Shown here: one piece after another, positions 515-63,060 of the stretch
Numbering within the stretch: the stretch's first letter is position 1
Layout: every line of letters starts with the position of its first letter
Source of the DNA: Geosiphon pyriformis
Taxonomy: Eukaryota; Glomeromycota; Glomeromycetes; Archaeosporales; Geosiphonaceae
Assembly: GCA_016748015.1 (NCBI GenBank)
Contig: JAAOMT010000109.1
Location: forward strand, 208,769-272,768
Reading direction: 5' to 3'
DNA length: 64,000 bases
Position numbers and translations under genes: made by a program
Notes under the pieces: model-generated
What the model was told of the DNA's origin: nothing
Database searches by the model: none
What the model saw: the letters and a program-made list of their open reading frames with translations, nothing else

Positions 515-959
515 AATTTGAGGATAAAAAAAAGTTATAATGATAATGACTAATTTTATCTGACATTTTGTTAATATATATTATAGTAAACTGTAGAATT
601 TTAAATCAAAATATAAGATTAATATAAAAAAAAATGACTTAATTAAGAACAAAAAAGTGTTGCCTAAGGTATATAGTGATCTGTCTGGCTTTTTTTCAAC
701 AAAAATAATTTGTTTGTTTGGAATTATTGAATCTTTTGTTGTTTGTTTTAAATTGTATAAGACTTGTTTGTTTTTTTAGATTTAGATAATAGGTTAGGAA
801 TCAATATAAATATATAGTGTAATTTTAATTGGCTTAAGTAATTGGTTATATATAGTAAGTATATAAGCCATATTTAGTTTAAATTATTTAGTTTGTTTTT
901 ATATATTAAATAATAGTTAGATTGTATTTATTAATAAATAATAATAATAATAATAAAAT
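515..959. other. AT-rich intergenic stretch, no gene seen
   Basis: Short A and T tracts and T-rich runs lie between two retroelement remnants. There is no frame or conserved motif. It is probably the 3' flank of the first remnant. Confidence 0.5.
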
Positions 960-1612
960 ATTAATAGTAAAAAACTGTTTGATAATTTTTAAAACATTTT
1001 TTTATTTTTAATTAATAGTTTTCTCTAATCAAAATTTTTTCTAATAAATATATTTAAATTAGTCTTAATATTGTTTTTATTTTTTTTAAAAACTTAAAAG
1101 TTTTTAATAATAAGCCAGTTAATAAGTTAATCTTTTTTGTTTTTATTATTAACATTATTACTACTATTTTATAAATAATCAAAAAAACCAAAAACTTTAA
1201 AAAATAACAGCAATTAGTTTTTTTTCTAATATAAACAATAACAATAACAATATATTTTTTAAGATAAATTAAGATTAATTACTAATTGTATTGTTAAATA
1301 TAATGTTTTTTTAAAAATATTTTTGGTGTTATTACTTTAATTAAATTAAAGCTTGTTAACTTATAGTCATATATTATTATTTATTTTAAGAATTTTTTTT
1401 TTGTTGTTATTATCTTTAATAACTAGTTTGTAATAGTTAAAAAAAATAGTATTTTTTATTTAACTAAAAAAAATTATTATTTTAAAAAATGCTTTTAAAA
1501 CCAAGTTAATTAATTTTTTTTTGGTTATATGCTTTTGAAATCAATATTTTAATTTTTTAAATTAATAATCATATTTGTTTTATTTTTTATTTTTTTAATT
1601 CTTATTATTATT
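960..1612 (+). mobile_element. Heavily decayed, internally deleted copy of LINE-type ORF1
   Basis: This block aligns by eye to the better preserved copy at 1673-3889. About 1020-1230 follows about 1855-2060 (shared context around AATAAYARRCCAGTYAAYAAGTT). About 1440-1600 follows about 2840-2965. The sequence between those two parts is missing. Most differences are C to T or G to A, so the copy is almost pure A+T and no frame remains open. It is a tandem neighbour of the next copy in the same orientation. Confidence 0.6.
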
Positions 1613-1672
1613 AATGAATAATTAATTAATTTACTTTTAAAAAATATAAAAACTCTTTCTCTCTTAATTTTC

Positions 1673-3889
1673 ATGATCACGAATAGAGCTAAGAGTAAAA
1701 AAGTTGCAAATATTACTTTTCTTATAGTAACTAATAAAGTTTCAACACGAGAGGGCCTCTCTGTTATTAAAGCAGCTAGACAAAACATTCTGGCAACATT
1801 TTCTTTAAAAAATATTAGTGATAAGCTGCCTTTAGCAGCTTCAGATTCATTTTTTTCTCCAGTTAAAGTTCCTTCAAAAAGGCACATTTGGGTTAGTCCC
1901 AGTATTGTCTCTACTACTTCAAAAAGCCCAAAAATTTTTAATAACAGACCAGTCAACAAGTTGGTTTTTTTTGCTCTTATCACTCCCACTACTATTTCTA
2001 CTACTACTGCTTCACAAATGGCCGTGAAAGCAAAAAATTCCAAAAAACAGCAGCAGGTAGTCACAACTGCTATAGTCACACCGAATCTCTTTGTGGTTTT
2101 AGATGAGATCTTCAGTAAGATTTTTACAGCAGCAGCCAGCCTTCTTACTGATATAGATGGCAACAGCAGCAGCACATCTCTCAAGATGGGCCAAGATTAA
2201 CCACTGGTTGTGTTGTCTGATGTAGTATTTTCCAGCAAATTATTGTCAATCCCAGTAGCAAAACAGTCTATCAATCTAAATAATTTCAAAGATTGGGCTG
2301 ATTAAATAGAAATAGAATCAACTGTCCCTCCCCCAGTTTCTGGTACTGCTAATGGTAGTGCTTGGAAGAATGTAAATGGTTATCAGAGATTTTCTGGTTG
2401 GGTGGTCTCCAATCTGGTACCTGGTGTTACATTTAAAATCAAAATGGCCCTGTTTAGTTCCTTGTTTCAGTTGCTGCCTGGTTGTATTGGGCTTAAGTCA
2501 GTTTCACAAGATGCTGTTAAGTTGTTCTATATAGAATTTGTATCTCAGAAGAGCCTAAATGGTGTTACCAAAGTGGCCATTAGTGATAAGGTTTTTTTGA
2601 CCACTTTTAAGATTGCACAATCTTCTGGTGTGGCCTCTGTTTCTTTCCCTTCCTTGTCAGTTGCACTGCATGACATACCTTTGAGTACCTCTTTTGATGA
2701 CATCAAAACTGCTCTTGGCATTTTTGGTGTTGTTATTTTTGTTAAGTTGAAGTTTGCTGGCTTATGGCAATATGCTGTGGTTAATTTTAAGAACATTTCT
2801 TCTACTGCTGCTGCTCTCTTTAACTGGTCTGTATTGGTCAAAAAAAATAGTATTAGGATTCTTCTTATTGTTAACCAAAAGAAGGTTATCTTCTTAAGAA
2901 ATGCATTCAAAGCTAAGTTGGTCAATCTTTTATTTGGCTGTACTGCTTTTAAGATAAGTAATTTGGTCTCCTAAGTTGGTGGCTGTACATGTTTCATTTT
3001 TTGCTCCTCTAAATCTTATTGATGTCAACATTTTGCTGTAGTTACCTTTGATTCTTTGGAATCTCTGAATGTTGCTGTGTCAAAAACTGGTACCTTGTGT
3101 GATTGTCGCATCTGGTGAGAAACTTCTGGGTGTCACTGCTGCTACAGGTGTTAAAACTTGAATTATTTGGCTGTGGACTGCAAGAAGTTGCCTTTTCTCC
3201 CACCTAAACTCCCTTTCAACACCTTTGGTGGTCCCAAAAATTTCAAATCTTCATTTGTTGGATCTAAATCATATGTCAAGCCTATTGCTTTTGTGGTTTT
3301 TCCTGGTGCTGCTGCTGCTAATATGGACTTGGATCTTGGTGGTCCTTTCAAAACTGTGACATCTATGTTGCCTGCTGTCTCTTCTGTTCCCAATAATGCT
3401 GTTGAATATCCTGCTGTTGGGTCTAAATTGGACTCTTTGGAAAAGCAAATTTCAGATTTGGCTGCTTTGGTAAAGTCTATTGTTGAGCCTATTGGCTCTT
3501 TGGTTGCCTTGGTATCTTGTCTCCTTAATAATAATACTGTTAAAACTGTTTAGGTTGAGAAAGATCTCCTTTCTATCAAATATGCTTCTAACAATTTTGC
3601 CAATCTTTTGGTTGGTGTGTCTAAAAATATTGCTTGTCTTAGATCTGAAGTTGACTTTGATGGCATGGATTATGATAATATGCAGGCTGCCAAACCTTCT
3701 CTCTTGAATAAGAATACTGTTGAACATATTATAGCTTTGTGGCAGATGTCAGGTGCTAAGGTTAGGAGTAGTATTGAATTTACTAGATTATTTTTTAGTG
3801 AGTTTATTTTTGATTCTAAGAATTTAAATGGTGTTATTGAAAAAATTTGTGAGTTGAAATTATTCTCACTTTTTATTGTTTCAGCTTAG
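1673..3889 (+). pseudogene. LINE-type retroelement ORF1 (gag-like, RRM plus zinc knuckle), seven nonsense codons
   Basis: One reading frame of 739 codons runs from ATG 1673 to a stop at 3887-3889 without frameshift. It is broken only by TAA 2198, TAA 2303, TAA 2972, TGA 3020, TGA 3116, TAA 3152 and TAG 3551. The N-terminal part is Ser/Thr/Lys-rich. The middle (about 2650-2900) has an RRM-like pattern (VALHDIPL, FGVVIFVKLK, YAVVNF). Around 3130-3180 lies a degenerate CCHC knuckle (CYRC, then a Tyr in the expected His slot, then VDC). The C-terminal part has a heptad-like LDSLEKQISDLAALV stretch. In such elements ORF1 binds RNA and chaperones retrotransposition. No reverse transcriptase follows: after the stop there are only about 130 bp to a poly(A)-like tail. 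The start could lie further upstream, because decay obscures it. Confidence 0.75.
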
Positions 3890-3975
3890 TTAGTGCTTTG
3901 ACTGACTCAGGTAGTTTGTTACATATAGAAAAATACAAGATTCATGTCTAATTTGTAATCTCTAAGTGGTGCATA

Positions 3976-4019
3976 GTATTAGATAGTGTTTGGATACACT
4001 TTGTTAAAACATAATAAAA
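3976..4019 (+). repeat. Conserved 3' terminus of the ORF1 element (copy 1)
   Basis: A stretch beginning GTATTAGATAGT and ending AAACATAATAAA followed by A's is repeated at 4872-4914, with about 40 of 43 positions identical. It lies the same short distance after the end of the ORF1 frame in both copies. This marks the 3' end of the transposing unit, with an A-rich or TAAA-type tail as LINEs and their non-autonomous derivatives have. Confidence 0.6.
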
Positions 4020-4082
4020 AAAAATTAATGATTTATTGTTATAATATTTAACTTTTGTAAATTTTTGAATTTTTTTTTATAA

Positions 4083-4930
4083 AAACTGGTATTTTATATA
4101 AATATTATATCTGATAAAAAACTTTTAAATATTATTATTGTTATAAGTATTAAAGTCTAAATTATTTATCTGTAAATTATAAGATATTATCATTTTTTTT
4201 CTTTAGTTATTTATTAAGTTTGTTGTTAATTCTAAGTTTTTTGTGTTATTTTTTGTTAGTAAAAAATTTTATGTTGAAATTTTTGTTCTTTTGGCTTTTT
4301 TTTGTTGTCTTTTTGACTATTTTTATTGTTAATTCTATAATTAAATTTAAGTTAAATTCTTTAAAATCTTAGATCTTAAGTTTAGCTGCAGTAATTAAAT
4401 TTATTATTAAATTTATTGGCTTTTTAATTACTTTGATCATCTTTTTTTTAAATAAAAAAAATCTATTTATTATAGTAAATATTTTTAAAAACTTTGCTAG
4501 TTTTTTGGCTAGTATATTTAAGAATTTGTTAATCTTAAAACTAAAATAAGATTTGGTAATATGAATAAAAATGAAATTAATATTGCTAAAACATCTTTTT
4601 TAAGTAAAAATATTTATAAATATTTGGTTGTTTTATAACAAATAACTGGTTCTAATATTAAAAAAAATATTGAAAAACTAAATTGTTTTTTAGTAAATTT
4701 GTTTTAAATTTTCAAAACTTGAATGATATTATTGAGAGACTTAATAAACTGGATTTATTTTCTGTTTTTTTTTGGTTTAGTTTAATTAGTGCTTTAATTT
4801 ATTTAAGTAGTTAATTATATATAAAAAGCATGTAAAACACATTTAATTTAAGTTAATTTTTTTGACATATTGTATTAGATAGTATTTGAACACACTTTGT
4901 TAAAACATAATAAATAAATAAATAAAAAAA
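4083..4930 (+). mobile_element. Second ORF1-element relic, C-terminal part plus 3' tail
   Basis: From about 4340 the sequence follows the C-terminal third of copy 1. A decayed KLNSLKS, stop, then LAAV..FIGF..FLN series matches LDSLEKQ..LAAL..PIGS..LLN, and the end shares the 3' terminus (4872-4914). The frame is littered with TAA, TAG and TGA and is far more AT-rich than copy 1. The tail continues as TAAATAAATAAA. No reverse transcriptase lies between the ORF1 end and the tail here either. Confidence 0.6.
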
Positions 4931-5741
4931 ATTATTTATTTTATTAAAATTAAAAAAATATTTAAATATATAATAAAATTATAAACTTATTAAAAAAATT
5001 TTTATTTAGTTTAAAAATGTATTTTACAACAGAATAAAATAGTTCTAATACTTAAAATAAATATAATATACCAAAACCAATTTCTTTTAACCAAATTATA
5101 ATTTAAAAATGAAAATATATTTAGTTAATAAACATATTTTTAGTAAACATTATTGAAAATAGAATTATCTTTAATAATATTGATTTTATTACTAAAAAAC
5201 ATTTTGGTCATTGTTTTTTTTTGTTTTAAATATAAATATAAAATTTACAAGCCTAAGAACGAGATTTTTTGAAAAATCATAATTTAATATATTTTTAATT
5301 AATTCATTTATTTTAAATAATAATTATAAAAATAATTATATATTTTATAAATTTTTTGTTTTATAATAATAAATTAATAATTAATATATAAAATTAATTA
5401 TAATTATGTATATTTTTAAAACATGAAAAATTATTTATAATTTTAAACCAATAAATAAGCCTAAAATTTGAGCAATTAATATTTTCTGTTTTGGTAAAAT
5501 TATACTCGATAACTTATTGGATATGACAAATAGCTTTTTATAACATTTATTTTGCGTAAGTCTCACATGGTAGATGTTACATGCTCATACCTCACTACAG
5601 ATAAATATGCACTATCCCAAATCCAGCAAAAGGGCAAATCTACAAAGGAACTTATGCAAACGATCCCTCTGATAGATCAAAACTCTTTTAACCCTTTCTC
5701 TCCAATTTGCCTAAACGATTAAAACCTTTCGCTCGTTCAAG
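4931..5741. other. AT-rich flank, then upstream region of the DUF2009 gene
   Basis: Up to about 5500 the DNA is A/T tracts without a frame. From about 5530 base composition becomes more balanced and pyrimidine-rich. This probably holds the promoter and 5' UTR of the gene starting at 5742. I see no clear TATA box. Confidence 0.45.
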
Positions 5742-8769: not shown

Positions 8770-10022
8770 TGAGTAGAAGGCTTACTGGATTGTGAATCTT
8801 ACATTTATGATTGTGACTCCACAAGAAATTTATTGATAGAAAGGAAGGTATTGGTGTGAAGTCAAATCCAATACCTATCTTAATAGATTAAAAATTGGCA
8901 TTCCGAATTTATACAATTTGAAATTATATCACAAATTAATAATATTCAAAAGCGCTAAATTAAGCGCGAGTGTTGAAACTTATTTCTTCCAACCTATTGA
9001 CTGACTCCATAGGTTCTGATTTTTACAATCAGACGCAACAAAAATATGGGAGTTTGTGGAATAATAGCGCTGCTGAAAAGGACCGATTAGCACGTGACAC
9101 TCATGTGAAAAGTATAAAGTTTGCTTCTTAATATACTTGCAAGTTTCAATTAAAATTAAATTTAAGAAAATTACCATTAATGTTAATTGAAAACATTTAA
9201 ATAAAATTTTAAAATATATAAATAATGTAACTTAAATGAAAAATATTTTCTTGTTATAATTAAAAATTTTACACCTATTAATATAGCAATTAAATTTATT
9301 TATATTAATTATTAATCTGATTTTTAATTAAATTATATAAAAAAGATTTTTTAAGGCTATGAAAATTATTTGAGCTTGTATTTATTTGATCTGATTTAAA
9401 TTTTTAATTAAAGTTAATTTATATTGTTTTTTTATTGTGTTTATTAAAATTAATTTAAAAAGCAAAAAACTTGTTTTTATAATTTATCAAATAAATAACT
9501 GTTAAAAATATTTTTTATTGTTATTAAATTCTAAAAATAATAATTAAAACATAGAATTTATAAAAATTAGATTATTCTTTATTAATAATTACAAACTATT
9601 TTACAACTTTTAAATTTTTTTAAAAAAATAACAAGTATAATTTTAAAACTGATTGTTTTTTGTTTAATTATATTTATATTATTTTTAATTACTTTTTTTT
9701 AGTTATAATAAAATAAAAAAAATTTTTAAATTTTTAAAATTAACTTTGTTATTTATTGAATAAAAAATTACATATAATTAACTTTTTTTAAATATATATT
9801 CTTTAAATATACATTTTTTTTAAGTATATAATTATTATTGTAATTATTTCAATTATATTTTGTAAAACTTAATATTAATATATTAATAATTTAAAAATTT
9901 TTTGGTTAATTTAAGTATATATTCAAATTAAAATATAATAAAAAGTTCAAATGTTTTATTAAAACAAGTCAACATTAAAACTTTTCAAGCTTAATAAATT
10001 TATAAGTAATTTTTAATTTTAC

Positions 10023-10054
<32 letters not shown>

Positions 10055-12498
10055 TAATTAATTGTTATTATAAATTATATGTAATAATCTTATTAATTAT
10101 TTTTTAAATTGATACTTTTTTAAATACACACTAAAAATTGCTACTTATAATGTGTATTTTAAAAAAATTGACTTTATTTTGTTATAAAAAAAACATAAAT
10201 TTATTTTATTGTTGACTTTAAAAACAATTTGAACCAAATTAAATTTTTTTAATTAGTAATAATATAATAAACAAATCCGAAAATTTTGAGCTGCACTCGT
10301 TAATTAATAAAAAAAAATTTGAAAATGATTTTTTATTAAACATTTAATTAAAATTTATAATAAAATCATTTCAAAAGCAATAAAAAAAAATAATTGCAAT
10401 AATTAACTATTTTATTTAATTATATTTTATTTAATTATATTTAATTAAATATATTTGATTTTTAATATTAAAATAGCTGTGTATTAATTTTGTTGAAATT
10501 TTCAATAAATAAAAAGTAAAAATTATTAAATATTTCTTATTTTTAATTTTTTTTTAAACAAGTTTAATATTTTGTTAAAAGTCATAATAATTTACTTTAA
10601 TCAAATAATTTTTTTTTGAAATAAGCTTTAACATAAAATATTTAAATTGGTAATACACTTTTTAAAAATAACAATACAGAACAAAAAAAAGAAAATTTTT
10701 TATTTATGTTAATTTAAATAATCAAATTTAATAAAAAACCAAAACAGCAAACTTTTTAATTATAAAAGATTAAAAAAAGCAAAATTTAGCTTAAATTTTA
10801 AATCCAATAAAAACTTTCAAAATTTTATTAAAGTTAAAACTACGAAAAATTTTATAAAAGTTTAAATCTTATTTATTAGCAAAATAATCCAGCTCGTATT
10901 ATTTTTTAAAACTATTAAGTATTTTTGTTAAATTGGTTTATAAACAATAACAATATTATTTTCTTAATTTGCAAAAGCCAAAATAATTGATTACTTTATT
11001 AAATAATAAACTATTAGTTGATATTACCATACAATACATTTTGAAAATAATTAGCAGAAAAATAAAGTTATATTTGTTAAATTATAAAGTCAATATTAAA
11101 GTCAATATAAAACAACAAATGACTTGAAAAAGTAAAAGTTTTGTTAGATTATAAATATTAAAAACTTATTGGTTAAAATAATTTAATAGTATTAAAAAAA
11201 GATTTTGCAAGAAAAATAAACATTATTTAACATGTAATCAAAACTAAAAATTTGATTATTTATTAAAAAATTTTTTTTAAAAGTTGACAAAAAACTGTTT
11301 TTATTACAAAATTTAAAATATACAATTCATATTTATGATATTTAGATTAATTAATGCTTTTCTTATTTTTTATACCAATTAATTAAAACTTTGTTCTGAT
11401 TTTATTGAAAAGCATTAAAGTATATTTTAAACATTTGGAATAAGTTTTTATTTTTTTAAAAATATTAAACTTTAAATTAATTTTATCAAATTATTATTAA
11501 AGTACTTACTAAAAAAAGCTTTTCAAATCTTAAAAAAACTTATTACTAATTTTAAAGCAACTTAATATTTTGCAATAAATAAACTTGAATATAAATAAAT
11601 AATTTGAATATTCAACTTATACAAATATGATTATAATATTTAATATTGCGAAAAAATTAATTATTAAAACTCCAACATTTTTTAGATTACCTATTTAATA
11701 ATAGTACATTTGTAAAAAAAACCAATTTAATTATTACTAAATTGCTTAAAACTAAACATAATAATAAATTTATATTTTGAGGAGCTTTTTTTCTGTTAAA
11801 ATTAGTTTAAGAAGTAAAAGAATTTTTTTGGTAATTTATTGAATAAACAACTGTTGAAATAATTGATATCTGTTTTATTTTTGAAAAATTAATAATTGTG
11901 ATTTTGAGGCTGATTACATTAATTAAATCGCTTACACATTCAATATTTTCTTTTGCTTAAAATTCTTTTAGTTAGATTTAGTTACTTTTCTATCTGTTAT
12001 TGTGTTACTTTAATTCATAAAAATAAAAATTAGATATTATATTGCTTGTAAAAAATAATTGCAGTTATTGTAATATATGAATTTATTTTAAAAATTATTG
12101 GAATTAAATCACTTAATTCTTTAATTACAGTTAATTGTAAACATTCTTAAAATAATCAAAAATTTTAAATTTAATTTAAAATATTATCTTTAGTATAAAA
12201 AATAACAGGTTTAATGATTTTACTTTAATTAATCATTTTTAAACTTTTTTTAAAGATGATAAAACTAAAATTTTATTGTAAAATTTTTTAATTCAATAAA
12301 TTTTTAAATATTTTTTAATAATAAAAATCAAAAATTATAATTGACAATATATAATTTTTGATTGTTAATTGATTTAAATAAATTATATAAAAAAAGGTGA
12401 TATAGTTTATATTTAGAAATATATAATTATTTTAAACAAATTCCTTATAAAAAAATTAATTAATAAGATAAGTTTATTATAAAAGTAAATGGAAAGGT
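8770..12498. other. 3.7-kb AT-rich desert of unidentifiable relics
   Basis: Only about 8980-9135 has gene-like composition; it holds a short open stretch that could be an alternative terminal exon of the DUF2009 gene. From 9180 onward the DNA is A/T tracts, including a (TAA)n run near 10026-10053. Texture resembles the decayed retroelements at 960-4930, probably in both orientations, but I could not align any part with confidence. No gene is seen. Confidence 0.5.
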
Positions 12499-31530: not shown

Positions 31531-33675
31531 ATGTTCTCAAAATTTAATTTCGCCATATTTTGTCGTTTTTCCAATGGCTCATCAAGAAGTTTGCATTTTG
31601 ACATCAACATTTGTTCCTCATGGCCATACTCACCCAAGCGGAACCACAATGAAATTCAACTTGCAGCTTGTCATTATTCAAGTCTGAGACGACCCCATCG
31701 TGTTCGTCAGCTTATTCGTAAACCATGGAGATCACAAATAGATATTTTTAGTTTTCCTCATTCAGGAAAAATTTTAGCAGAAAATGGAAAAACATCTTCA
31801 GAAAATTTTGAAAAAGTGGAAGCATCAACGGGGATGCTTTATGATACAGTTCCTATTAGAGAACCTGAAGGACTGAATGCTTTTCAACGATTAATGTTCA
31901 CAGTGAAGCGCCAAGCAATTTCCACCTTTATGCCTAAGGGTTATCCAGATTCCGTGACCAAAGATTATTGGGATTTCACTAAATGGCAAATTTTAAATAA
32001 AGTTGCTGGCTCGGTTACCGGTGGTGAGTCTTGGGTAGCCTTTTGATCTACACTTACTTCAATTAATTCAATTTTTTCAGTGTTGTCGATGCAATCATTA
32101 CTTTTTGCAATGGGTCTTGGAGCGAAATCTGTTCCTGTGAGTTTCGGAATTTTGCATCACTTTAAAATTAATTAACCCATTTTTTAAAATTTTTTCTAAT
32201 TTCCTCTTAGCTAGCTGCAGCCTTCAATTGGATCATTAAAGATGGTTTAGGTCAATTTGGTGGTGTACTCTACGCTGCATTCATTAGCTCTCGGTTCGAT
32301 TCTGAGCCGAAGCGTTATAGATTCCAAGCATCCCTCTCGATGCAATTAGCCTGCCTGGTCGAACTTATAACTCCTTTATATCCGCATTTATTTATCTTAC
32401 TTGCCTCAATTTCTAATATAGGTAGATTCAGTACTTATTGAAAAAACTTTATTGCTTTATTGGTTAGAAATGAATTATTGTAAACTAAAACTCAATTAAT
32501 TACAGGAAAAAATATATGTTGGTTGGCAGGTGCTGCTAGCAGGTACAAAACATTTGATTCTTTCACTTAATTAAAACATGTTCACATATTTATTTTATTC
32601 TGAAATAGAGCACAAATGACCAAAACTTTTGCATTGCGTGACAAGTAAGTTCGTGATTATATAACACTGGTATAAATCTTTGTTTTTATTGTGCTTTACC
32701 TTTCTATTTTATTAATCGGCAGTTTAGGGGACATTACCGGGAAATCAAGGTCACAGGGTACAGCTGCCGGTTTGTTAGGTAACGATCAAATTTGAAATTT
32801 TTCACAACAAAACTCATTTAAATGTATTAAATTCTTCAGGCACAGGCATTGGAATTGCCATAAGTGCCACAATTACCGCGATTTCAACGCCTATTTCTAT
32901 AATTTCAGCAGCACAGCCAGTAACTTATATATCTCTTGCCTTTGCTCCCTTTTCGGTTCTGAATGTATACGCTTCCTATAGATCAAACTTATATGTAACA
33001 AGTAGCACCCTGAACATTCAGCGCACTGAACTAATACTTGACTATCTTCTCAGGAAACGATATCTCGAAACAGGTCTTGACGGCTTAATATCCAATTCAA
33101 AAGGCACCTCTATATCACAATTAGTTCCAAGTCCGAGAGAAATATCAAGAAGTGAAACTTTTGTGAAAAGATATCATTCTTTATTCCAAATTCCATTGGT
33201 TATGGAACCGACGCTCCATTACTATGTTTCAAAGGAATATTTAGAAGATTTGCGTTCAGGTCTGCTGCAGGAAGGATTTTTACATCCTGAACAATATTTT
33301 ATCTTGTATATACCGGAGCATCACCTTTTTGAGAAAATACAGTCTTCTCAACCGTCTTTTTCCAAATTACTCAAAGAAATCGAAAATCCCGGTCATAAGC
33401 GACATGTAGCCTTGTTGTTTTCCAATAAGGCTACAACAAAAGACATTATTAAGGGATTCTTGCATGCCTGCATAATACGTTATATCTTAGAACACGATAA
33501 ATCAATACCTTATGATGATCGAAAAAAAGTTATAGAGGCGATTCAAAAGACTCATCAGAATGTTAATCATTCATTTGATAACTTATTGGAAGGTCTCGTG
33601 GCTAAAGGGTGGGATATTGAACATTTGTATTTGACAGAAAAAGATGATGAGCGTAGATTAATCATTGAAGAATGA
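31531..33675 (+). CDS. RUS family protein (DUF647)
   Basis: RUS (root UV-B sensitive, DUF647) proteins are found across eukaryotes; plant RUS1/RUS2 act in vitamin B6 homeostasis and early growth, and the animal member is RUSF1. The molecular function is not settled. Exons 31531-32023, 32081-32136, 32211-32421, 32506-32542, 32609-32644, 32723-32778 and 32840-33675 join to 574 residues. Family hallmarks are FMPKGYPDSVTKDYWDFTKW, WIIKDGLGQFGGVLYAAF, DSEPKRYRF, GKNICWLAGAASRAQMTKTF and NLGDITGKSRSQGTAAGLLG. A hydrophobic stretch (about 297-340) suggests membrane association. The C-terminal part carries the usual less conserved domain. An in-frame ATG at 31435 would add 32 residues. The start at 31531 gives a basic, Ser/Phe-rich N-terminus with few acidic residues that resembles a mitochondrial targeting sequence. 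Confidence 0.88.
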
Positions 33676-51437: not shown

Positions 51438-53289
51438 ATTGAGAAATCTTAATTCTAAAGAAACTTGATATTAAAAGAAATTATTCAGCTGTTGGAAAAT
51501 AATTATAAATTTTTTTTCAATCATCCCTGTAAAATCATTAAATCATCAAATAAAGCGCGTGGAATTGGTACTATTTTTGGCTCAATTTTGGATATCCAAA
51601 CCAATCACGGATTAACCGGTCTACCAGCGCAAAGTTGCAAGCACTCCCCAGGGCATTCTACAATGTTACTTAAGTACAAAATTTCTAATACTCAACTTTA
51701 TCCATGTGTTCGGGTTGGGGACATGCAGTGAAGTTGTTGGGGCTTGTTTCACAGTATTTGTCACTTGTGCTGATAATCAGATACGATTATCATCATTGAT
51801 CAGAATAAAAACAAGTTATTATTAATAGAAAATTTGATCTTTATTGTGCGTGACGTTTTCACAGCTTCCCGCCTTGACGCATTTATGAGGACGAAAAATC
51901 CACCACTTGCAATTTCTTCCCAAGGTTCCCCCGCCAAGAGAATGCAAGTGCTCCCAGAACAATTTTTTAAAGAATAATTCTCTTTTTTTACCACACATTC
52001 AGGTTACCCATTATAGCAGCGGAGGATTCCCTAGCTCTTAAAGGGTGATCAGTTTTGAATAGTATAATAAACAGTTAAACCTCAAATAATGATAATTTCT
52101 TCTTTGATTAGCCATTTTCTGCTCTCAAAGATATCTGCTGTGACAATCCTTGTTTTATACAATAATTTTTGTTCTTAAGAATTCTTAAGATAAACCATTT
52201 CTAAGTTTAATTATTTTTAATAGATTATATTGCCCCAATTTTTCAAAATTTTTTGATTGCACCAACTTTTTTTTAAATAGAAGTTAATATCACTTTAATA
52301 TGCATAATAAAATAAAGTCTTTAATACATTTAATATAAAATAATCAGTTTTATTAATTTCAACAAAATAGGTAGTTACTCAATTCTAACATTATTTATTT
52401 TAAATTGAGAGGAATTTAATTTTTTAAACTTTTTTTTGTACAATTTTAAGCAATATGATTTTGCTTTTGATTATTAATTTTGACAATGAAAGTTAAAATA
52501 ATCAAATGCATCAAGAAATTAAATAATAAAAGTGTGCATAATTTTAATTTCAAATTTTAATTAATAACAGAATAAAACCCAAAAATAATTGAAACTGAAT
52601 ACATAAATAAAAAAAAAGATAGTGTTTTTAAAATACATATATTTTTATTAATATTAGTATTTATATATTTGTATTAATAACTAAAATAAGTTTATATTTT
52701 TGTTTTTAAATAAATATAAGAATATATATATAATTATGTTTTAAGAAAAAATATATTAATATAATTATTAAAAAAATTATTCACTCTATTTATATTTTTA
52801 TTTATACACAAATTGCAATTTTATCCTTATATCGTTATTTTTATTATTATTTTGTGTATTTATTTAAACCAACTACAAGTTTTTAATATATATGTTTTTA
52901 ATAGTATATTTTTTAAAAAAAATTATTCATTTAGATTTTCATATTAGTATCTTGAATGAGTAAAAACATAAAATTTTATTAATAAAATCTTTAATGTAAT
53001 AATATATTATATTTGAGCATAATATATAAATTTGTTTTTTATTAATATTGTTAAAGTTTTTTTATGTTATTAAGTGTTGTAATTCTAATTAATTAGATTT
53101 ATATATTAATTAATAATATTTTTTTTTCTAAATTTTATTATTAAAACAAAAGATAAGAAAGAAATAGTTATTATTTTTTTTATAATAGTTAATAGTGTTA
53201 CAATTTAAAAAATTCTTTTAGTTGTAAAAATAGTTAAACAAAATATTATAAAAATTTTTAATTAATAACATAAAAACTAAATCAACTTT
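51438..53289. other. Intergenic, grading into AT-rich desert
   Basis: 51438-52050 is balanced, holds the promoter of MATH-BTB D and short frames without resemblance. From about 52180 the DNA is A/T tracts with no recoverable feature. Confidence 0.45.
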
Positions 53290-54080
53290 TTTTTCTAAAT
53301 AAATTACTAATTTAAATGGTATTTAAAAAACAATATTAAGCTTTTTTATGTGAAATTTATACTTCAAAGTTTTTTAAATATTGTTATTAAATGTGAATTT
53401 GTTGAAATTATTTTTCTTATTATTTTTTGTAATATTTTTTTAATCACATTTTTTGACAATTTTAACATATTTAATAAAGTTTTTATTAGTAGTAATATAC
53501 TTTAAAATTTTTGAATTTGTTTGTATAATATATTTAAAACCAAGTTGATTAATTTTTTTGATTTTATTATTTTTAAATTTAGTAATATAATTGCTTAAAT
53601 ACATGTTTTATTTTTTAATTACTTAATTTTAACTATATTTAAAGATATATTATTGTTATTTTAAGTTTTAATAAGCTTTGAATATTGCTATTGCTAAAAC
53701 TGATATTTTAAAAAGGAATTATATTTGGTAAAAACTTTTAAATATCAGTATTATTATAAGTATTAAGGTTTAAATTATCTGACTTTTGAATATTAAACTG
53801 TTTTTTGGTCTGTCAAAGTTTGTTTTTAAGCTATTTATTATGTTTAAAAAGTTTTTATAAACTAATTTTTTGGCTTTGTTTTTTTTATTAAAGTTATTAT
53901 TTTATCTGTTGTGTTTTATTTTATTATTATATTTAATAAAATATTTAAATTTAGATTAGATTTTTTGAAATCTAAATCGCAAAATTTAATTTCTTTAATG
54001 AAATTTTTAATAGAATTTTTTGGTGACTTAATTCATTTTTTTACTTATTTCTAAAAATAAATCCAATATAAAAATAAATA
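53290..54080 (+). mobile_element. Third ORF1-element relic, extremely AT-rich
   Basis: 53530-53600 follows the copy-1 stretch around 2900-2970 (AAAACCAAGTTGATTAAT against AAAGCTAAGTTGGTCAAT). 53725-53775 follows copy 2 around 4118-4165 (TTTTAAATAT...ATAAGTATTAARG). 53890-54050 resembles 4330-4450. Order and orientation agree with the copies at the left end, so this is a far more decayed member of the same family. No frame survives. Confidence 0.5.
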
Positions 54081-54346
54081 ACTAATTCTTTTTTTTGGAG
54101 ATTTAAGTTAATTTAAAAAAATATGATATATATTAATTAATTAATAAATAAAAAAATAGGTAGTTGTAAACTTGTAAAAAATAATATACTTGATTAATAT
54201 TATTATTTTGTTTTAATTAAGTTGTATTTATTTTAAATACTTAAATTCTTAATTATTTAATAATACATTTTTTTTATGAATTTATCATTTTTTTGTTGAT
54301 TTTTTAAAATATTATCCAAATATTATTCGAAATATTCAAAATTGTG

Positions 54347-54444
<98 letters not shown>
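54347..54444. repeat. (TAA)n microsatellite, about 98 bp
   Basis: About 32 uninterrupted ATA/TAA units. Its place 270 bp after the retroelement relic could make it an expanded 3' tail, but this is only a guess. Confidence 0.9.
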
Positions 54445-56736
54445 CAAAATGTGAAATAAAATAATAGAAATTAAGAATAATTTGTTTATTAGGCCAAATA
54501 TTAGCTTTTTAATATTTTTAATAAAATATATAAATATATTAAAAAATTCTTTTATTTTAAATAATTGTTTGCAATTTTTGTTTTTAAATTTTTTTGTTGT
54601 AAATACAATTGAAAGTTTAATTGATAATTCTGTTTACAATTTTTCACTGTTTTTTTTTTTCAAACTTCAAATTTTTAATTGAAAAAAATCAAATTGAAAT
54701 CAAAGATTTTATTTATAAGTGTGAAAAGTATGAAAATAAAACGGGAGACTAATATTTTAATTCTCTTTGTTTTATCGATATTGTTTCCACATGCAAAAAA
54801 AAACCAATATTAAAGAATTTTAATTTTGTATTTTTTTATGAGTAAATTGTGAAAAACCTTAGTTTTAAAATTTCACATTTCATTATCAATGCACTCAAAT
54901 TTTAGATTTTGAAAATGTTTAAAAATAAGAAAAATAAGAAAAAGTGGTTAAATATTTAAAAATTAATATTTGCCTAGTTCAGCCCAGCCATTGTATCTTT
55001 AATTTTACATTTGGATATATCCAAATCTTTACACTCCTCATTAAACCTTTTACCTTTTTCTTCTTTTTCACAAATGTCAAACTTGCCTGGACTTTCTCTT
55101 CTTGTCCTTGCTGTTGTTGTCAATCTATATATGCTGCTGACAGTTCTTTATTGATCTCTGTTCCTACATCCTGCAGATCAAGACAGTGTTAATTGCAAAA
55201 ATGTCGAATTGCAATAGTATAGATTGATGCGTTATTTTCTGAACCATGATAATTTTGGTGCTATTAAGATAGATGTGCCCGAGGAGGTCATAGACAAGTT
55301 CATAGTAGGCAACTATAGTCTATTAAATTGGAAGAGAGGCATAAGGATAATATTCACACAAATACAAATGTGAAAGTAAAGCTGGCTCGCAAGCCTGATC
55401 AAAGCTGAACTAGTCCCGAATCTGGTCAAACTAAACCGGGCTTCTGAACAATTTGATCCGGCTCGCAAACTACCACTGCGAGTCATGTGATTTATGTGAT
55501 TATTTATTAGATATACACAAACATGACTAATAATTCAAATAAAAAAGAAAGTTTTAAATATTTTGCTATTTGTTATAACTCAATTTTTTATACATTCTAA
55601 AAAGTATTCTCTTTTCTTGTATCTATGTAAAATATCGCTGTATTTTGAATTTTTTTAAAGTGAGTCCCTATATTAATGGGTAAATTACACTCAAGCAAAC
55701 GATATATATAATTTGAAATTTAGTGAAGTTTAGAGACAACATTCCAATTTTTCAAAACAAAAAAAAAGTTGTATCTCCTGTCATTCTTATAGGAAATAAC
55801 GTCATATACTAAGAACTTATATCACAAAGGAAAGTTTTTAATACGTGTATTGGGCAATGCTGTCAAATATTTTTCCCTGAACTAAATGAAGAAACCTATA
55901 AATTAGTTTAAGAAAGATTTCGAGTATTTATTTAGAAGGCGACTTGGAACTTTCAATATATAGTATGGGGATAGTTTTTGCTACTTGCTTGAGAAAAGAA
56001 ATTTTTTATGGTTTAAAATCTATATTTTAACTTTTAATTTTCTATTTAAAACGCTAATTTATCTCTTTTTCCTATATAAAAACGATAATCTTAAAACGGA
56101 GAAATCGGCGATAAATCTTATAATGGTAAAACTTCAAAAAAGATATATTACAATACCAATAATTGGTTATTGGTATTGTACACCATTTGCCTAAGCTTAT
56201 TTTTGCTTTTTTTAACATGTTATAATTAATAATAGTTCCTCTAGACACCTTAATTGTTTAATAGTCTGGTGTCAGAAAGTTCTGAAAATGATTAAATAAA
56301 AAATGAAACATTTATCGATAAAAATAATGCGGAAATACAAAAGTAATATAAAAAAATAAATCAATTGCTAATATATAATCGTGACAAAAAGATCTCGTTG
56401 GACGAAATCTACCTTTTACTCAATAATTATGAGCTAGGAACTAACTGTCGTTCATTCACTTTGAAGATAATGTATTGCATCCACAATTTGATGACTCACA
56501 TATTGCACATTTTTCCTAAGTCACAAAACAATGCTTAATATCGAAATAAATAAGAATTTTTACAAATTGAACTTTTTTTGTATTTTACAGAAATATCAAA
56601 TTGAATCTTGAAATCACGGATAATGCTATCAAAGATTTAAACGCGAAACTTTAAACATGCTTTCCTATATGTCTCTTCGAATTTTATAATTCAAGAATAA
56701 GAACTATAGAAAAACCTTCCTTCCATCATTTGATAG
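54445..56736. other. Intergenic, with a balanced-composition island at about 55030-55510
   Basis: The island contains a stretch readable as RYFLNHDNFGAIKIDVPEEV and VIDKFIVGNYSLLNWKRG (about 55230-55350) before stops; the peptide looks natural but no family was recognised. CT-rich tracts precede it. The rest is AT-rich. A hairpin lies at 56149-56180. Confidence 0.4.
56149..56180. repeat. Perfect inverted repeat, 14-bp arms, 4-nt loop
   Basis: Arms TACAATACCAATAA and TTATTGGTATTGTA flank TTGG. It could form a hairpin in DNA or RNA. No gene abuts it directly. Confidence 0.8.
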
Positions 56737-58066
56737 CTAATTTCTCTTTATTAAGATACGATTCAACAATCGCCTCTTCTTTCTTTCTCGCTTCACATCT
56801 TTACTCAAGATTTCACTCAGTGATCGACTGATGTAAATCGCTTTATCATTTGGAAGAAATTGTCGATATTCAGTACACACCTTATAAGGTATCCAACTCT
56901 CGATCATATCCTCACGAAGCCATTTCATTAGAATTTCCTCAATCTCATATATTGTTGGGCGTTTATTCGGATCTTCGTCCCAGCAATTTTTCATCAATTT
57001 AGCATAACAATCTGGTGTCTCTTGATCAATCGTCGGTCTTAAGCCATTGAGAATTTTCTGAACGAGAATACTGTCGTGCGGAAATTGGGCGAAGGGAGGA
57101 TCAGAGTACCGGGATGCAACTTCCCACATTATTATGCCGAAACTGTAAATATCAGCTTCAGGTGAATATTTTCCATATTGTAAGATTTCTGGGGCTAGGT
57201 ATGGAATGACTCCCCAAACTTCTCTGGGTTCCGTTGATGGGGGCAGATTTATGGGTCTACGCTGACCAATATCAGTAATCTTGAGATCAATTCCATAGGG
57301 ATCAGATAAAATATTTCCACAATGTAAATTTCCATGAACATATCCTTCTGTGTGTATTGATTCAAGACCACTTGCAAGACCTCCTAATAGTAGAATTTTC
57401 ATTCGCCAAGAGAAGTTTGTCCAGTTATATCGTAGTTCATGACTTAAGTTGCCTCCAGCTGCGTACCACATAACCAGAACCAAATCATTTGTTTTAGGGT
57501 CTTTTGAAAGACCGTAAATTCGACAAATATTATTGTTCCAAAGGGATTGTAAAATAAAGCGATTTATAGATTTCAGCTAAAGGATCAACAAAAAATGATT
57601 TTTTGCTGGAATTTAGTGCATCCGATACCCAAAAATGCAAAAAAAAATTAATTTTATTTCAATTCGATACCTCTGACAGAAAGCTTTCACATCCATCAGA
57701 TGAATTCCGAAAAGTTTTCAAAGCAACTTTAAGGCTTCCCCCTCGTTCCAATTTCTTCTTTGTCCTATCAAACCCGATCACCTTACCGCTCTTCCAATCA
57801 CACTTATCCACCCTTCCATATTGACCTTGACCTATCAGTTCAATATTTTTAAATTCAGTGTATGAAATCCATTCAAACCAAGGCCATTCGTCTAGCCATC
57901 CATTTCCAGCATTAATTTGGGCATTTCTGATAACTTCATCAATAAAACTATTTCCGCTTGTCCACGATGGAATATCACATGTTGGACAGATTTTTAATGT
58001 ATGATTCCAAACTTTATGACATTGAGAACAGTTTATAGCTTTAAGTTTTGATTCCTCTGGATGCAT
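56737..58066 (-). CDS. TKL-type protein kinase, probable pseudokinase
   Basis: Minus-strand exons 58066-57671 and 57576-56737 join in phase 0 to 411 residues. N-terminal Cys pairs C14/C17 and C27/C30 form a small zinc ribbon, then WTSGNSFIDEVIRNAQ and EWISYTEFKNIELIGQGQYGRVDKCDW. The ATP-site Lys is present (KVALKTF, K117), as is a candidate helix-C Glu (E132). The catalytic loop reads VHGNLHCGNIL (HGN at 213-215), so the HRD Asp is Asn. The DFG-equivalent is TDIG. The APE region (YLAPEILQYGKYSPEADIYSFGIIMWEVAS) and CWDEDPNKRPT are intact. Retained ATP-binding residues with a lost catalytic Asp argue for a pseudokinase or a very weak enzyme. The C-terminal tail is basic (KRERKKRRLLNR). It is the only uninterrupted kinase of the three here. 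Confidence 0.85.
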
Positions 58067-61218: not shown

Positions 61219-61923
61219 ATATAAATCTTACTAATCAAATTGTAAAAAAAGGGGTAAAGTTCAACAAAATTTACAAATTTCACTTTTTAAAATCAAAAGT
61301 CATGTAAAGTAAGATAGAATGGTCTCAACCAAATTTTCTTAAAAATTATCTATTGTGCTGTTTAATTAAAGAATTTGAGCCAATAATTTTAAATTTTTGT
61401 AAAGTTACTTTTGAAATTTTTTGATTTAATCTGCAAAATAATAATTTTTGGATAAAATTTTTTCAGCAAAAAATAATAATAAATGTTTAAAACTGCGGCC
61501 AGGCTTCCCTTTTTTATATAGTTAAGTTCAATACATAATAATGATGAAAGTTTTTCGCCCTAAAACTCAAATGCCTAACCGGAGGGGGGGGGGGGAGCCA
61601 ACATAAATAACTGTGTTTAAGGGCGCGTAAAAATTTTTGGATCATAAAATTTCAAATATTAGGCCCCTGAAAAAATCAAAAAAAGGGTCCAAAACACGTC
61701 CAAGTTTATATTTCAAAAAAAAGAAAAACAAATCATTCGATATAAAATCTGCTGACATCATCAATTTTTCTCATATTATATATACTCTTGCCGTAATTTA
61801 CAAATTTCAAAAGTCAGATTTCAAAAGTCAAATTTCAAACTCATAAAACTTAAACACGTACTATAAGCTTCATGTATCGTAGGGTTTACTACAAAAAATA
61901 CCTAAGGTTCTATAGTGATGAAG
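61219..61923. other. Intergenic up to a probable chimeric join
   Basis: AT-rich DNA with a G run at about 61584-61596. A short open stretch at 61637-61846 has no resemblance to a family. The segment ends at the adapter-like sequence at 61924. Confidence 0.45.
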
Positions 61924-61942
61924 CTGTCTCTTATACACATCT
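61924..61942. other. Tn5/Nextera mosaic-end sequence (assembly artefact)
   Basis: The 19 bases CTGTCTCTTATACACATCT are an exact match to the Tn5 mosaic end used in Nextera libraries. Translated frames across it give the known artefact peptides LSLIHI (plus) and MCIRDS (minus). It is almost certainly an untrimmed adapter joining two unlinked sequences. Confidence 0.95.
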
Positions 61943-63060
61943 TGGTTACTTCTAAAAATCTAGATGGCGAAAGATCTGCAGAGAGTGAACGAGAAAAAAA
62001 GACATTGAGAGCCGAAAAACCAAATGACCCAAACAATTTGGTGGATACCTGGCAAAGCATAGCATGGGATAACGGGGCCAAAAAAACAAAGGTGATATCG
62101 ACTCCTTTCTGTGAAAAGGAGACCGATAGTGATAAAATCCTCCTAATGGAGGAGAAAACTGATGAGACGAGGCAAGCTATTGAAGAAAATCTAGAAGACG
62201 CAGAAAATCTAGAAGACGAAGAAAACCTAGCAGACGAAGGAAATCTAGAAGGCGAAGGAAATCTGGAGCGCAAAGAAAATCTAGCAGACGAAGAAAATCT
62301 AGAACGCAAAGAAAATCTAGAAGACGAAGGAAATCTGGAGCGCAAAAAAAATCTAGCAGACGAAGAAAATCTAGCAGACGAAGAAGATCTAGAAGACGAA
62401 GAAGATCTAGAAGACGAAGAAAACCTAGCAGACGAAGAAAATCTAGAACGCAAAGAAAATCTAGAACGCAAAGAAAATCTGGCAGACGAAGAAAATTTAG
62501 AACGCAAAGAAAATCTAGAAGACGAAGAAAATTTAGAACGCAAAGGAAATGAAAGTGAAGTAATTATGGAAAATAATAAAAATAAGATTACTCAACTGAG
62601 AGTGATTGAAGAAAAAACATTAAAAGTTCATCAAGAAATGGGAATATCGAGCGTTAATAATAAGGAAAATAATAATATTGAAGAGTCATCAGGAAGTATT
62701 GAAGGAGAAACAATAATGGAAAAGGGTTCTGAAAATAGAGATTTGGATAGTAAAGTAAATGAACTGAAAATGGCCAGAAAGGAATCACTGATACAAAATC
62801 ACAATGAGGAGATTNNNNNNNNNNNNNNNNNNNNNNNNNNNNNNNNNNNNNNNNNNNNNNNNNNNNNNNNNNNNNNNNNNNNNNNNNNNNNNNNNNNNNN
62901 NNNNNNNNNNNNNNNNNNNNNNNNNNNNNNNNNNNNNNNNNNNAAATTAAATATTGATGACTTTAGGAAAAGAAAATCGGATATTGAAGTGGATAGGTGG
63001 GTAGGAAGCAGGAAGAAGCAACACCTTGATTCAAAAGACAGAAAATTCAATACCAAATAG
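61943..63060 (+). CDS. Glu/Lys-rich repeat protein, partial and gapped
   Basis: An open frame runs from the adapter junction through 62814, across a 129-bp N gap (exactly 43 codons) to TAG 63058-63060. Its 5' end is lost at the junction; the first Met after it is at 62146. The part after the junction is polar and charged (SAESEREKKTLRAEK). Then comes a 6-residue repeat (62182-62550), alternating acidic units (DEENLE, DEENLA) with basic ones (RKENLE). A polar coil with NNKENNNIEESSGS follows. The last codons (RWVGSRKKQHLDSK) lie in the first unit of the downstream satellite. It is likely a highly charged helical or disordered protein. Whether frame continuity across the gap is real is unknown. 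Confidence 0.45.
62182..62550 (+). repeat. Coding minisatellite, 18-bp unit, 20 copies plus a partial
   Basis: Twenty 18-bp units run from 62182 to 62541, with a partial unit to 62550. All are in frame, each encoding six residues around an N-L or D-L core. Units switch between GAC-GAA (Asp-Glu) and CGC-AAA (Arg-Lys) at their boundary. The second-strand Ser/Arg-rich frame is a shadow of this repeat. Confidence 0.9.
62815..62943. other. Assembly gap, 129 N
   Basis: Run of N between two repeats. Size may be an estimate. Confidence 1.

Follow-up and report, generated by a model that had tools for sequence, protein, structure and literature searches.

The window, as we call the whole stretch of 64,000 nucleotides analysed here, carries a retrotransposon copy of ~2.4 kb (1640..4024, +), whose homology with its relatives starts at 1635-1654 and whose end is marked by a poly-A run near 4015-4024. 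Its LINE-type ORF1 (1673..3889, +) is a single frame of 739 codons, free of frameshifts, interrupted by seven internal stops (TAA at 2198, 2303, 2972 and 3152; TGA at 3020 and 3116; TAG at 3551) and closed by a terminal TAG at 3887 that is common to 12/12 of the other copies with a 3' part. An earlier reading made from the letters of this DNA (hereafter the sequence-only reading) had described this frame with its seven stops and called it a LINE ORF1, and both points were confirmed. With stops read as residues, Pfam RRM_1 matched the middle part in 14/14 copies (best E = 1.3e-10) and zf-CCHC in 7/14, and the LINE-type label stands on these matches among the copies; a Pfam search with the open pieces of the window copy alone returned neither an RRM nor a zf-CCHC match. 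The RRM-like domain lies at 2672..2818 (+). The zinc knuckle CX2CX4HX4C (3140..3181, +) is broken in the window copy by the stop at 3152 and a His-to-Tyr replacement, and the motif was seen, in some frame, in 17/31 other copies. Structure prediction for the middle part of ORF1 reached a mean pLDDT of 38, and in this low-scoring model a strand-helix-strand-strand-helix order is placed at Pfam's RRM position.

A run of at least six A followed the part shared by the copies at a distance of 350-900 bp in 26/32 copies, 25 of them at 581-744 bp; it was absent from four copies, and two loci were too short to tell. This suggests that the element ends at the A-run 581-744 bp after the shared part. Reverse transcriptase (RT) matches were found in 8/21 sequences searched, mostly upstream or on the opposite strand; two loci (L017 and L027) had them in the same orientation, 2-4 kb downstream and past the A-run. 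Given where the A-runs lie, and that the RT matches fall elsewhere or beyond them, the element looks ORF1-only and would be mobilised by the machinery of another element.

Relatives of the window copy, found by searching the assembly (124.7 Mb, 406 contigs; probably of an arbuscular mycorrhizal fungus, AMF), indicate what the stops replaced, all on the forward strand. Most other copies have CAA where the window copy has TAA at 2198..2200 (27/31; TpC context), 2972..2974 (27/31; CpC) and 3152..3154 (25/31; TpC), and CAG at 2303..2305 (23/31; TpC), from which TAA needs two changes. The TGA at 3116..3118 stands against TGG in 21/31 copies, in a CpC context on the opposite strand, and the TAG at 3551..3553 (TpC) against CAG in five, TAG in four and CAA in three of 12 copies. 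At 3020..3022, a former CpG, the window copy has TGA and the 31 others have CAA (12), TGA (11), TAA (5) or CGA (3), and only CGA yields TGA by a C-to-T change. For each of the seven stops some relatives hold a codon convertible to it by C-to-T or G-to-A change. One stop lies at a former CpG and six lie in TpC or CpC contexts, which is consistent with the two-layer decay described below, seven stops being too few for proof.

The statement of the sequence-only reading that all seven stops lie one C-to-T or G-to-A change from a sense codon is borne out against the relatives, with two such changes needed at 2303, but it would hold for any stop codon, since every stop is a single transition away from sense (TAA from CAA, TAG from CAG or TGG, TGA from CGA or TGG). 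Stop codons alone were thus rejected as proof of a directed process. That inference was invalid and its conclusion survived by way of the alignment: the directed process noticed in the sequence-only reading is real, although the argument given for it did not demonstrate it.

Across 1673-3407 the sole indel of the window copy relative to the majority is an in-frame gap of 21 bp, and across 3408-3889 the copy is free of indels compared with 12 copies; past the end of the ORF it has one additional base. A frameshift-free state is not rare in the family: 11/31 other copies share it in the aligned stretch and the remaining 20 carry one or two frameshifts, while the number of stops ranges from two to ten across the 31.

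The window copy is itself inserted into an earlier member of its family that has decayed much further, whose left half occupies 905..1640 (+; right end uncertain, 1622-1640) and whose right half occupies 4032..4965 (+). Joined without the insert, the two halves align through the junction to positions 2301-4051 of the window copy, with a score of 1141 as compared with a maximum of 295 in 20 shuffles. The insertion is flanked by a candidate target-site duplication, ATTAATGA, at 1610..1617 and 4024..4031 (both +), a short AT-rich match that could have arisen by chance. Relative to the window copy, the older copy has 372/547 C/G sites converted (68%), 51/997 A/T sites changed in the opposite direction, 106 transversions and 84 gap openings. 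The sequence-only reading had expected neutral decay to bring indels; these do accumulate, as the 84 gaps of the older copy against the single 21-bp gap of the younger indicate, but they arrive far more slowly than C-to-T changes, which answers the puzzle of stops without frameshifts.

For the direction of change we used an alignment of 32 copies over 1673-3407, from which copies matching less than ~1400 bases of the query were omitted; the copies are the best-scoring matches of one search and no random sample. In columns with at least 70% agreement, which omit most former CpGs, the window copy differs from the majority at 102/1586 columns, 96 of them C-to-T or G-to-A (60 and 36, respectively), three reverse transitions and three transversions. 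Relaxing agreement to 60% (1670 sites) gave 116 C-to-T/G-to-A changes, 10 reverse transitions and five transversions in the window copy, and 40-149, 8-42 and 5-34, respectively, in the 31 other copies; the 3' part of the window copy has 32, 0 and 3. Among columns with two alleles, each present in at least two of the 32 copies, 392 were C/T, 282 A/G, 36 A/T, 11 G/T and five A/C. A non-reversible substitution model, fitted to 1628 columns after removal of CpG columns and without use of the majority base, agreed: the rates were 5.73 for C-to-T and 3.48 for G-to-A, as compared with 0.98 for T-to-C, 0.69 for A-to-G and 0.13 for C-to-A, with all printed transversion rates at or below 0.30, and the log-likelihood rose from -14823.0 under GTR to -14299.7 (a gain of 523). 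Conversion was nearly equal at the three codon positions (0.147/0.140/0.146 in the pooled copies; 0.199/0.175/0.158 in the window copy), as expected of selection-free decay after insertion. Decay by a directed C-to-T process, as the sequence-only reading had proposed, is thus upheld.

The strongest component of this decay is at CpG. At 45 former CpGs the copies showed CG 137 times, TG 564, CA 545 and TA 150 times, so that ~90% had been lost, symmetrically between the strands; doubly converted TA was far below the 355 expected under independence. Because a site entered this set of 45 only if both TG and CA occurred there, decayed sites are favoured; an alternative set, the 51 sites at which at least one copy has CG, gave TA 130 times as compared with ~337 expected. 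Double conversion at other dinucleotides was 41 vs ~31 expected for GpC (AT), 80 vs ~107 for CpC (TT) and 27 vs ~41 for GpG (AA). Strand exclusion is therefore most pronounced at CpG, with a smaller shortfall of double conversion at CpC and GpG as well. Such exclusion is the signature of CpG-dependent decay, because conversion of one strand leaves a site that is no longer a CpG and changes at a slower rate, and the decay in question is probably that of methylated CpG. The sequence-only reading had named methylcytosine deamination as one of two candidate processes, and the loss of former CpGs to TG or CA, seldom to both, speaks for this part of it. Copies are mostly, but not entirely, independent of one another in the states of their CpG sites (pairwise identity 0.438, as compared with ~0.336 expected from pooled frequencies). 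In line with this depletion, the observed/expected (o/e) CpG ratio is 0.08 in the ORF1 copy and 0.04-0.11 in six listed TE loci, whereas nine stretches of the window that bear genes have ratios of 0.74-1.09.

Cytosines outside CpG also decay, several-fold more slowly. At 703 non-CpG sites at which C or G remains the most frequent base, mean conversion was 0.128 and depended on the preceding base (T 0.193, C 0.139, A 0.089, G 0.084) and on the following one (CpC 0.173, CpT 0.115, CpA 0.110). The trinucleotides ranked TCC 0.244, TCA 0.205, CCC 0.192, CCT 0.172, TCT 0.158 and GCC 0.138, followed by ACC 0.127, CCA 0.102, GCA 0.076, ACT 0.073, ACA 0.065 and GCT 0.055. TpC exceeded the remaining contexts in 31/32 copies and CpA did so in 5/32; at the 703 sites no preference for CpA was found (effect -0.029, reached by 4999/5000 permutations). 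The family alignment proposed in the sequence-only reading, scored for transitions, transversions and context, thus yielded a strong C-to-T excess, a CpG layer and no CpA preference. Over the 32 copies, CpG retention and non-CpG conversion were anticorrelated (rho = -0.50, p = 0.004). The non-CpG layer favouring cytosines after a pyrimidine (YpC) is the new part of this decay, the CpG layer being decay of the methyl-CpG type. Non-CpG C-to-T conversion was also higher on the sense strand in 32/32 copies (0.152 vs 0.102); group B, a repeat described below, had no such bias, and we rejected it as a general feature.

Further repeats came from loci fetched for the ORF1 family, and the samples are limited to these: group B, with RT, has 11 copies, and seeds C (18 copies), D (18) and F (6) overlap and form one group, D and F coinciding at 6/6 places and C and D at 15/19. 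What had been taken for four further families therefore reduces to two groups (B and C/D/F); seed E, with three copies, was too small and was dropped. Strand exclusion at CpG recurred, with TA observed 6, 31, 23 and 2 times in B, C, D and F as compared with 21, 66, 50 and 7 expected, and in all four a 5' T or C ranked above A and G, with C slightly above T in D.

Genes behaved differently. The window holds a tyrosine/Ser-Thr kinase gene (56740-57483, -) with a 91%-identical paralogue on contig C112, and it served as a control. In 172 alignments of 22 kinase loci, which are not mutually independent and are mostly coding, there were 11356 transitions and 12726 transversions (a ratio of 0.9), and the CpG o/e was 0.63-0.94; four of the alignments, of 90-92% identity over ~1 kb, gave ratios of 0.69-1.35, and a 1.9-kb pair with flanks gave 135 transitions, 76 transversions and 24 gap openings. 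In the 19/20 kinase loci that could be oriented, the non-reversible model gained 6 log-likelihood units, as compared with 523 in the ORF1 family, and the GTR C-T rate (G-T = 1) was 2.9 vs 30.6. C-to-T exceeded C-to-A 2.2-fold in the kinase genes vs ~44-fold in the ORF1 family outside CpG (5.73/0.131). A single RT element of another family, with a 900-codon open frame in a fetched stretch, keeps a CpG o/e of 0.78, as compared with 0.03 in the decayed RT group B. Since the kinases and this RT element are spared, repetition is not enough to explain the decay, nor is a genome-wide bias, and as far as tested the process follows the transposon compartment.

A profile search located PF00145 at ten places in the genome. 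The methyltransferase on C96 is DNMT1-like. That on C355 has a BAH domain and matches DIM2 best among PDB entries (9baq, 5e-13), followed by DNMT1 (1e-11); that on C327, with a sub-threshold BAH domain, is nearly tied (DNMT1 5.7e-15, DIM2 7e-15) and is 66% identical to the C355 protein over 62 aa. By these scores both would be BAH-methylase genes of the DNMT1/DIM-2 group. A methyltransferase motif on C307 and C346 is presumably DNMT2-like. Contig C318 bears a further cytosine methylase type at two places (L029 and L033), 32 kb apart; AMF are reported to have RID and DNMT5 types, and this methylase could be either. For uracil repair, C271 has three adjacent UNG-like pieces, below the family cut-off and two of them with an internal stop, and we did not retain loss of uracil glycosylase as an explanation with these pieces present. 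The UDG-superfamily search matched one place, on C282 (Pfam UDG), which from its motif we take to be TDG/MUG-like. PF00383 occurs at five places in the genome; a search for DddA-like deaminases was silent in its controls too, hence uninformative. According to the available text of the respective papers, 9BAQ is a structure of DIM2, an enzyme that methylates both CG and non-CG DNA (PMC11315935), and the AMF clade holds a RID-type methyltransferase and DIM-2 (PMC8298701).

The pattern to be explained consists almost entirely of C:G to T:A changes, which affect either strand and every codon position, with CpG going first (to TG or CA) and other cytosines, preferentially those after T or C, following at a several-fold lower rate. 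We consider it likely that this reflects methylation-linked deamination aimed at transposons, at CpG first and with a non-CpG YpC layer. ORF1-only LINE-derived copies would decay after insertion by C-to-T change directed at the transposon compartment, with deamination of 5-methylcytosine as the presumed chemical step and a DNMT1-type enzyme maintaining CpG methylation. For cytosines outside CpG, the two BAH-methylase genes of the DNMT1/DIM-2 group would perhaps provide the enzymes that methylate or directly mutate them, in a mode like the Dim2-dependent mitotic C-to-T mutator of Zymoseptoria with a YpC instead of a CpA preference. This enzymatic part, a mitotic RIP-like mutator acting outside CpG with TpC above CpC, we put forward tentatively, as a possible and rather doubtful extension. 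Counted against the mechanism are the differing contexts published for Dim2, the exclusion at CpC and GpG, the family-specific strand bias, the partial non-independence of the copies and their selection by score, the close DIM2 and DNMT1 matches of C355 and C327, and controls made up of mostly coding kinases and one spared transposon of another family.

The alternative with an appreciable, if lesser, chance of being right is that CpG methylation alone is at work, non-CpG changes arising by ordinary spontaneous deamination or from deficient repair in heterochromatin, so that the YpC preference would not be due to an enzyme. CpG is indeed the strongest layer, TCC and TCA rank highest in a dipyrimidine-like pattern, the DIM-2 identity of the C355 and C327 candidates is unsettled by the close DNMT1 scores, and the R. 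irregularis methylome, in the portion of PMC8647823 available, shows mCG at TEs. Against it stand the ~44-fold excess of C-to-T over C-to-A outside CpG, as compared with 2.2-fold in kinases, and the presence of uracil glycosylase-like pieces, sub-threshold and partly interrupted as they are. Repeat-induced point mutation (RIP), the other process named by the sequence-only reading, fares worse: in its classic form, RID-dependent and triggered by homology with C-to-T change at CpA, it would account for the extreme C:G to T:A bias in repeats and for nonsense by transition, and a RID-type methyltransferase, which the C318 gene could be, is stated for the AMF clade in the accessible text of PMC8298701. 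We nevertheless judge it quite unlikely, as CpA (0.110) falls below CpC (0.173) and CpT (0.115), conversion of a CpG on one strand tends to preclude conversion on the other, and repeated kinase genes of 90-92% identity over ~1 kb are spared. Overall, then, the LINE ORF1, the directed C-to-T change and CpG deamination of that reading stand and classic RIP does not; the YpC layer was unforeseen.

A genome-wide AT-biased mutation with nothing specific to transposons could draw on the AT-rich stretches of the window, which reach ~14% GC, yet the kinase paralogues combine a transition:transversion ratio of 0.9 with retained CpG and gain next to nothing from the non-reversible model (6 vs 523), and the AT-rich DNA at 9-12 kb keeps a CpG o/e of 0.67, so that we regard such a bias as highly improbable. 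Least credible of all is dipyrimidine damage of the UV type or a deaminase acting processively on single strands, which would suit the TpC and CpC preference, the sense-strand excess in the ORF1 family and the five PF00383 places: CC-to-TT is not in excess (80 vs ~107 expected), conversions in the window copy are neither clustered (lag-1 autocorrelation 0.097) nor arranged in strand runs (50 switches vs 53.9 expected), and the kinase genes are spared.

Among known systems, the Dim2 mutator of Zymoseptoria tritici is the closest in mechanism, by analogy, with a different context. In the available passages of PMC8016269, more than 95% of new mutations in strains with working dim2 are C-to-T, at CpA and in methylated regions; as here, C-to-T is nearly exclusive and falls in repeats, and two related BAH-methylase genes occur in the present genome. 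There, however, >98% of C-to-T changes are at CpA and CpG is hardly affected, whereas here CpG is affected most, followed by TpC and CpC; the published methylation preference of Dim2 is CG, then CA, then CC, with mutations at CA (PMC8016269). Methyl-CpG deamination in TEs of Microbotryum, Melampsora and Puccinia, with a Masc2-like DNMT1, resembles the present case in its CpG-to-TpG/CpA changes and in the DNMT1-type enzyme encoded; unlike in those TEs, as far as the accessible part of PMC4352252 describes them, ~90% of examined CpGs are lost per copy here and a second, YpC layer is added. The RIP-like TpCpG hypermutation of Microbotryum shares the 5' T before the mutated C, although the preference reported here was measured at cytosines outside CpG (PMC5381629, in the excerpt available). 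Classic RIP of Ascomycota (RID) has the same C:G to T:A bias in repeats, but here CpA is not preferred and repeated kinase genes are spared.

For Rhizophagus irregularis, probably of the same fungal group, TE methylation and DNMTs have been reported (PMC8647823, PMC8298701); the available passages of these papers do not mention a mutation footprint, and the Nanopore methylation was called at CpG (PMC8647823). Among the matches listed for RIP and cytosine methylation in AMF, consisting of titles and abstract openings with few subscription papers, we found no decay of the YpC type. According to the same passages, mass spectrometry gave 32.5-49.5% of cytosines methylated (PMC8298701), and mCG sites by Nanopore correspond to 13.8% of cytosines (PMC8647823). 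In the window, 12% of cytosines lie in CpG; in its 20 TE loci, CpG accounts for 1.3% and YpC for 51%. If the R. irregularis totals apply here, a cross-species step, most methylation must lie outside CpG; and if the mechanism proposed here held across AM fungi, a YpC mutator could account for the 32.5-49.5% methylated cytosine of R. irregularis. Transposon-aimed C-to-T decay with a defined non-CpG context would be the sequence record of an unmapped layer. Such decay also inflates transposon ages estimated from overall divergence and helps to explain very AT-rich relics.

Other stretches of the window are AT-rich too. Positions 9000-12000 and 52200-55000 have ~14% GC and a CpG o/e of 0.67 and 0.38, respectively; they are less stripped of CpG than the transposons and have perhaps become AT-rich by another route. 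An ORF at 33163-33675 (+) matches Pfam UVB_sens_C, the C-terminal domain of the root UVB sensitive protein (E = 1.1e-9). At 61924-61942 (-) there is an exact 19-base match to a transposase sequencing-adapter end, presumably of the Nextera type, with 0 such matches expected by chance, which is probably a contaminant of the assembly and falls within two overlapping ORFs, 61902-62543 and 61915-63060.
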